Position numbers and translations under genes: made by a program | Assembly (NCBI GenBank): GCA_014360495.1 | Contig: JACIXR010000007.1 | Location: 108,501-172,500 of the forward strand | Direction of reading: 5' to 3' | Origin: a bacterium | Lineage (GTDB): Bacteria > Armatimonadota > JACIXR01 | DNA: 64,000 bases | Notes under the pieces: model-generated | Seen by the model: the letters and a program-made list of their open reading frames with translations, nothing else | Databases searched by the model: none | What the model was told of the DNA's origin: nothing | In this document: positions 11,805-12,588 of the stretch, one piece after another | Layout: each line of letters opens with the position of its first letter | Position numbering within the stretch: position 1 is the stretch's first letter

Positions 11805-11834
11805 TTGACATAACTCTTAACAAGTTTGTAAAAT
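11805..11834 (+). promoter_or_regulatory. Promoter placed for leaderless transcription of the PD-(D/E)XK gene
   Basis: TTGACA (11805-11810), 18 bp spacer, TAAAAT (11829-11834). Only seven bases separate the -10 box from the ATG at 11842, so transcription should start at or next to the ATG. Confidence 0.75.
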
Positions 11835-11841
11835 AGTATTT

Positions 11842-12588
11842 ATGACCAAAAAGGAATTGGTTTATCAAAAAGCGAGAGAGATTCTTAAAGCCCATCCTTC
11901 TTGTTTGAAATACTCTCAGCTGTTTAAAAAACTAACGGAAGCCCTACCCGATATATCCAGGAACACAATTGCTGGCTCTTTGCATAGAATTAGGCTGGAT
12001 ATTCTTGAAGGGAAGATAACCGACATTGAAATTCCCGATAAAGGATTATATTGCTTTAGGGAAGGTAAACCTCCACCTCCACCTCCACCCACACCTCCAC
12101 CTTCGGTAAAGGAAACCGACTTCTATAAGCCATTTGCCGAATATCTGATAAACGAGTTGGAGGAATGCACACGGGCAACACCCCTTGGTGGAAGCATTTT
12201 CGGGGATAAATGGGGAACTCCCGATGTAATAGGCGTGTACAAATTCTCCCCTCTAGACCCCATCCAACCACCGATTGAAGTCATTAGTGCGGAGATAAAG
12301 GTAGATACAAACCAATTGATAACCGCATTTGGGCAAGCATGTGCCTATAAGCTATTCAGCCACAAGGTTTACCTCGTGATTCCCAGAACAGCCGGAGAGG
12401 ACATAAGCAGGATAGAATCGCTTTGTATGCGCTTCGGCATAGGGCTTATCACTTTTGATTTAAATCCCTGCGAACCTAATTTCCAAATCCGCACAAGAGC
12501 TTCAAAAAGCGAGCCCGATTATTTCTATCTAAACAAATATTTGAAAAAATTGAGTGAGAAGGCGATAAAGGAATTATTCGGCGGATGA
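11842..12588 (+). CDS. Orphan winged-helix-like / PD-(D/E)XK nuclease-fold protein
   Basis: I do not recognise a named family. The 248-residue protein has three parts. Residues 1-75 look like a helix-turn-helix or winged-helix module (KYSQLFKKLTEAL...SRNTIAGSLHRIRLD). Next is a proline linker (seven Pro, Thr, three Pro, about 77-88). The C-terminal domain has the spaced residues of a PD-(D/E)XK nuclease: Pro127-Asp128, Glu151-x-Lys153, and Gln165-x3-Tyr169 (the QxxxY element of RecB-like and restriction-type nucleases). No methyltransferase or other defence gene is adjacent. The gene is alone between divergent hisG and the convergent kinase gene, has no SD and looks leaderless. A DNA-binding nuclease of defence or mobile origin is possible, but this is inference. 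Confidence 0.6.
   Translation: MTKKELVYQKAREILKAHPSCLKYSQLFKKLTEALPDISRNTIAGSLHRIRLDILEGKITDIEIPDKGLYCFREGKPPPPPPPTPPPSVKETDFYKPFAEYLINELEECTRATPLGGSIFGDKWGTPDVIGVYKFSPLDPIQPPIEVISAEIKVDTNQLITAFGQACAYKLFSHKVYLVIPRTAGEDISRIESLCMRFGIGLITFDLNPCEPNFQIRTRASKSEPDYFYLNKYLKKLSEKAIKELFGG

Follow-up and report, generated by a model that had tools for sequence, protein, structure and literature searches.

The window, the 64,000-nucleotide stretch of DNA analysed here, carries a gene at 11842..12588 (+ strand, as are all window features given with coordinates below) for a 248-aa protein that joins a Rok-like winged helix to a predicted PD-(D/E)XK nuclease domain. The open reading frame that an earlier note on this DNA had placed there is indeed present, and its translation, relatives and conservation support it as a gene. 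The protein belongs to a family that is unusually well conserved, spans bacteria and archaea, and has no name in the libraries searched; we file it as a putative variant of the winged-helix/HARE-HTH nuclease type, outside every named family. Our working interpretation, held tentatively and at somewhat less than an even chance, is that of a mobile, mostly solitary restriction-type endonuclease that would read DNA in the manner of Rok and cut at or near its bound site, most likely acting on incoming DNA. Taken over all readings, a restriction-type role is in our judgement rather likely; a function in defence is presumed.

The nuclease assignment began with three motifs, all of which lie at the positions first given for them: P127-D128 (12220..12225), E151-x-K153 (12292..12300) and the QxxxY motif Q165-x3-Y169 (12334..12348). 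The pattern PD...[DE]xK arises in 24% of shuffles of the window protein and on its own is weak evidence of a nuclease; with QxxxY added, the figure falls to 0.16%. Across 82 full-length relatives, P127, E151, Q165 and Y169 are present in 82/82, and D128 and K153 each in 81/82. Conservation of D128, E151 and K153 among homologues and a predicted structure holding the nuclease core had been set beforehand as tests of the proposal. The relatives were gathered with two peptide patterns over the catalytic motifs, and the rows that each pattern would miss were checked separately; here PD was kept in 9/9 and the E and K pair in 26/27. Two natural departures from the catalytic residues were found, a tyrosine at D128 (L004) and an isoleucine at K153 (L081).

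Structure prediction and fold search agreed with the sequence conservation. AlphaFold2 run on the window protein with the 82 relatives gave a pLDDT of 92.6 and a pTM of 0.65; an alignment of 5 sequences had left the nuclease domain unresolved, and the 82-sequence alignment resolved it. Residues 91-246 (12112..12579) form a predicted alpha-beta-beta-beta-alpha-beta core with all three motifs in place: D128 precedes a core strand, E151-x-K153 lies at the end of the next strand, and Q165xxxY169 sits in the helix after beta 3. Given the modest pTM, the placing of the two domains relative to each other is probably uncertain. Foldseek with the nuclease domain matched PD-(D/E)XK proteins, among them MspJI (probability 0.89) and BsaWI (0.38) and, in the viral models of BFVD, several whose annotation reads MmcB-like DNA repair protein (best E 7.6e-7, probability 1.00). 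Weak matches to sce7726 appeared in 18/82 members, the best at 0.0046. Conservation and model thus bear out the PD-(D/E)XK core, and in our judgement the window protein is very probably an active nuclease, with metal-dependent DNA cleavage as its predicted chemistry. The two domains are separated by a proline-rich linker of low pLDDT (residues 74-90, 12061..12111). The run of prolines described earlier is real in the window member, but it is not a family feature: the linker is not conserved in the alignment, and three or more consecutive prolines occur in 8/82 members, the window member included.

The N-terminal module, initially described as DNA-binding-like, is a winged helix, apparently of the Rok type (residues 1-75, 11842..12066), as judged by the predicted structure, profile comparison, Foldseek and Pfam. 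The model contains helices at residues 3-17, 24-34 and 40-55 and strands at 62-66 and 69-72. Searched against the PDB, the family profile matched Rok (5zuz) with E 0.0012, and with E 0.0026 when the winged helix alone was used; Foldseek with the first domain of the window protein returned 5zuz with a probability of 1.00. The Pfam family WH_Rok (PF23159) was found at E<1 in 31/82 members (best 2.1e-6), the window protein itself giving no match, and the Rok match is weak when single sequences are used.

Rok contacts the minor groove with N154, T156 and R174, assisted by lysines including K171, and prefers AACTA, TACTA and TpA-rich DNA (PMC6212790). At or near these contacts, with a helix 3 register that is ambiguous by one residue, the family has N41 in 68/82 members, T42 in 74/82, K64 in 61/82 (arginine in 6 others) and arginine or lysine at position 67 in 81/82. 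N41-T42 (11962..11967) opens helix 3 and corresponds to N154/T156 of Rok to within that one residue. The wing, I64-P-D-K67-G68 in the window protein (12031..12045) and KPxRG in the family, aligns with the place of Rok K171/R174; the window member has the basic K67 at the R174 place but I64 at the K171 place, and is without the wing lysine. We regard it as possible, though short of probable, that this winged helix reads AT-rich DNA as Rok does.

The same winged helix also occurs with a different nuclease. At L192 (1075-1722, - strand; genome G097), it forms an uncharacterised fusion with a C-terminal part that matches the GIY-YIG enzyme T4 endonuclease II (2.5e-7); Pfam alone gave no GIY-YIG domain there at 0.001. 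Plasmids of Rhizobium, of Ensifer and of a Chloroflexota carry near full-length relatives of this fusion (hits H2-H7), annotated as GIY-YIG nuclease family. Fused to GIY-YIG as well as to PD-(D/E)XK, the winged helix is a swappable module common to two nuclease folds.

Comparison with known systems placed the family close to several of them. The HARE-HTH proteins with a PD-(D/E)XK domain (PF05066 type; L007/L177, L184) have the same order of reader followed by nuclease and share the PD, ExK and FGIG features. hhalign aligned the family with them over 206 columns (probability 96.5%, E 7.3e-10), and L184 matches the family profile at 2.7e-11, forming a bridge. By these alignments, the nuclease domain is homologous to that of the HARE-HTH restriction-like proteins. 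In contrast, the N-terminal domain of the family is Rok-like rather than HARE-HTH, and the SFELK/SNSSW signature is absent from it; PF05066 was not found in the window protein and reached E<1 in only 2/82 members. HARE-HTH membership was dropped on the absence of this domain. Bacillus subtilis Rok (PF23159; PDB 5zux, 5zuz) shares its winged-helix fold with the family and, given the ambiguous helix 3 register, seems to share most of the residues around its minor-groove contacts. However, its winged helix is C-terminal in a silencer without a nuclease, whereas that of the window protein is N-terminal and joined to one, and Rok membership was dropped on this difference. DpnI, FcyTI, Psp4BI, Ahi29725I and Apa233I (PMC11037411) resemble the family in combining a winged helix with nucleases of more than one fold and in being mostly stand-alone. 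The DpnI type, with PD-(D/E)XK before the winged helix, has the reverse of the order in the window protein, and membership in the DpnI family was dropped accordingly. The MmcB-like and sce7726-family PD-(D/E)XK proteins share the fold of the catalytic domain, but there is no membership at the sequence level.

The window gene has its own predicted strong promoter, TTGACA-18 nt-TAAAAT (11805..11834), which matches the consensus at 11/12 positions. The predicted transcription start lies at or beside the ATG at 11842, so the mRNA would be leaderless, as the earlier note had proposed. Read by eye from open reading frame translations, hisG and ilvD/ilvB flank the gene to one side, and a histidine kinase and its response regulator flank it to the other, both sets on the opposite strand. 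The GC content of the gene is 43% (43% at third positions), compared with 47-52% (53-57%) for adjacent core genes; murJ and the gene next to it, nearby, are similar in GC to the window gene. No flanking or terminal repeats and no insertion signature were found at the locus. Neither of the congeners G206 and G207 has hisG and the histidine kinase on one contig. Upstream of hisG in G206 (L104 486-2888, contig C100) is an HD-domain gene that reads by eye like type III CRISPR Cas10/Csm1, an indication that the position upstream of hisG varies and receives defence genes.

Searched singly against Pfam, NCBIfam, PADLOC, PHROGs and the PDB, the window protein gave no significant match, and among the PADLOC anti-phage models no family reached E<1. 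When one genome per species was scanned with a profile, relatives turned up at 147 loci, of which 80 were fetched. Their identity is 44-72%, mostly 44-58% over the full length, and they come from Patescibacteria, Aquificota, Nitrospirota, Bacteroidota, Planctomycetota, Verrucomicrobiota, several archaeal lineages and others. Five further relatives came from viral contigs; the plasmid collection gave one match to the family and the phage collection none. Median pairwise identity across phyla is 51%. Within the phylum of the window, matches were found in 8/291 genomes, a few of them partial or to related proteins.

The family moves horizontally and often decays. Its tree requires 34 changes of phylum label against a minimum of 21, together with 5 changes of domain, with archaea and bacteria interleaved. 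The copies of the window and of congener G207 fall in separate supported clades, which makes two or more acquisitions by the genus most likely; G206 has no copy. At least five copies are broken, with stops in L002, L024, L043 and L055 and a further broken copy at L006.

Most members are solitary among housekeeping genes, without a defence neighbour, and a minority lie inside type I, IIG, IIS or III restriction-modification (R-M) loci. Restriction-modification genes occur within two genes of family members and are scarcer further off. Among 123 proteins up to two genes away, Pfam found N6_N4_Mtase in 6, ResIII in 6, N6_Mtase in 2, MmeI in 2 and Eco57I in 2, and PADLOC methyltransferase models matched up to 6 of these near proteins. 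For 140 proteins at least four genes away, PADLOC gave, among the matches listed, no methyltransferase model with more than one protein, and one IIG enzyme; this control is approximate, covering the first 25 families for the far set and applying Pfam to the near set only. At L018, L022 and L037, the family member is the second gene after a type III mod-like gene, and at L022 and L037 a large helicase-like gene follows it directly; at L011 and L014 it lies between an upstream mod-like gene and a downstream res-type helicase. The family gene follows two D12 methyltransferases and an AlwI-type restriction endonuclease by 5 bp at L019 and an N6/N4 methyltransferase by 23 bp at L034, and another such methyltransferase adjoins L038. 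L061 adjoins hsdM, L073 an Eco57I/TaqI-type enzyme and L080 an MmeI-type enzyme. Some of these R-M-linked loci are related, but the R-M types vary across the tree. The check for homologues and co-occurring genes thus found relatives widely, mostly solitary, with R-M genes adjoining a minority. The claim that the protein stands alone, with no methyltransferase or defence partner, holds within the window but not for the whole family.

If the family acts as a Rok-like restriction-type enzyme, the N-terminal winged helix would dock on DNA by inserting helix 3 and its wing into the minor groove, preferably at AT-rich, TpA-containing DNA, and would tether the metal-dependent PD-(D/E)XK domain (D128, E151, K153, QxxxY), which would cut at or near the bound site. 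The target would most likely be incoming DNA, with the protein working alone, as in the window genome, or as an extra nuclease within R-M operons. The "sequence-guided" action suggested in the earlier note is putative for the window protein; of the three functions offered there, the solitary restriction-like protein is best supported and repair is less likely, given the patchy, mobile distribution. It is improbable, in our view, that the protein tells foreign DNA from self by silencer-type AT-rich minor-groove reading and destroys rather than silences it, with no methyltransferase, guide or modification. Observed/expected ratios for the Rok-type motifs AACTA and TACTA were 0.90-0.94 in two gene-carrying genomes and 0.94-0.98 in one without the gene; avoidance was not clearly seen, and genomes with and without the gene were not distinguished. 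However host DNA may be spared, AT content alone is a doubtful basis for telling it from foreign DNA, since these motifs are hardly avoided and the hosts belong to many unrelated phyla. The main rival is a type IV, modification-dependent endonuclease whose winged helix would sense a mark such as N6-methyladenine (6mA) on foreign DNA, only marked DNA being cut. We consider this unlikely, though it accounts for solitary life without a partner methyltransferase. Winged-helix fusions with PD-(D/E)XK, HNH, GIY-YIG and PLD nucleases have been shown to be 6mA-dependent type IV enzymes, and stand-alone fusions of this kind, it has been argued, must recognise modified DNA or be toxic (PMC11037411). Here too one winged helix is combined with PD-(D/E)XK and GIY-YIG, the modification-dependent MspJI is among the Foldseek matches, and no D12 (Dam-like) methyltransferase was found in the window genome, G000, or in G207 and G067, which also carry the gene. 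What strains this rival is that several members, unlike the known winged-helix-fusion type IV enzymes, share an operon with genes for predicted N6-adenine methyltransferases, namely type III mod-like genes or the D12 pair at L019. In such hosts a general 6mA reader would cut the host's own DNA. The winged helix is also Rok-like, and DpnI has its two domains in the opposite order.

The other alternatives are less probable. A sequence-specific type II-like enzyme, protected by a methyltransferase that is encoded next to it in some hosts and at another genomic site in others, would fit the N6/N4 methyltransferases beside the members at L034 and L038 and those that G000 and its genus carry away from the gene. 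Yet the type of neighbouring methyltransferase varies by locus, L019 and the type III loci already hold a full R-M gene set, and most members have no methyltransferase beside them, which makes this quite unlikely. A role in DNA repair, as a structure-specific nuclease like the MmcB family, has an equally small chance: the viral MmcB-like matches speak for it, but similarity at such depth reflects fold rather than function, the distribution is patchy and laterally mixed with broken copies, and no repeated repair-gene neighbours were noticed at the loci inspected. Finally, single-gene insertions beside many different housekeeping genes and separate acquisitions within one genus would suit a free-standing homing-type selfish endonuclease spreading between intergenic sites. 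We think this very improbable, as no common insertion site and no flanking or terminal repeats were seen and the repeated placing in R-M operons fits defence cargo better.

Stand-alone defence-type nucleases are hard to find because they are partnerless and diverge fast. If the family cuts DNA as predicted, its Rok-like winged helix would be a third kind of reader in the winged-helix nuclease toolkit, beside HARE-HTH and the DpnI-type winged helix, and it would become testable whether a silencer-type reader can direct restriction and how a solitary nuclease leaves the DNA of its host intact.

Several further observations were made around the family and its hosts. A DUF6884 gene (PF21818) adjoins a family member in each of two distant hosts (L109 9161-9583 in G067; L075 7420-7866 in an Archaeoglobaceae bin), and small MNT-type nucleotidyltransferase genes occur within two genes of members at L029, L041, L059, L064 and L068. 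On a contig from the viral collection, the gene beside a member (L090 10774-11799) reads by eye like the abortive-infection protein AbiH. G000 has few N6/N4 methyltransferases (C3:45842-46267, C2:200079-200611, C15:11188-12405, C2:246976-248394), several of them with broken frames; its congeners G206 and G207 gave 28 and 19 matches. All three congeners, G000, G206 and G207, strongly avoid 4-bp palindromes, with no tie to the gene. Observed/expected ratios in G000 are 0.04 for GATC, 0.11 for TCGA, 0.12 for ACGT, 0.13 for GGCC and 0.17 for CTAG, with similar values in the congeners, and this scarcity of four-base palindromes points to heavy past restriction in the genus.
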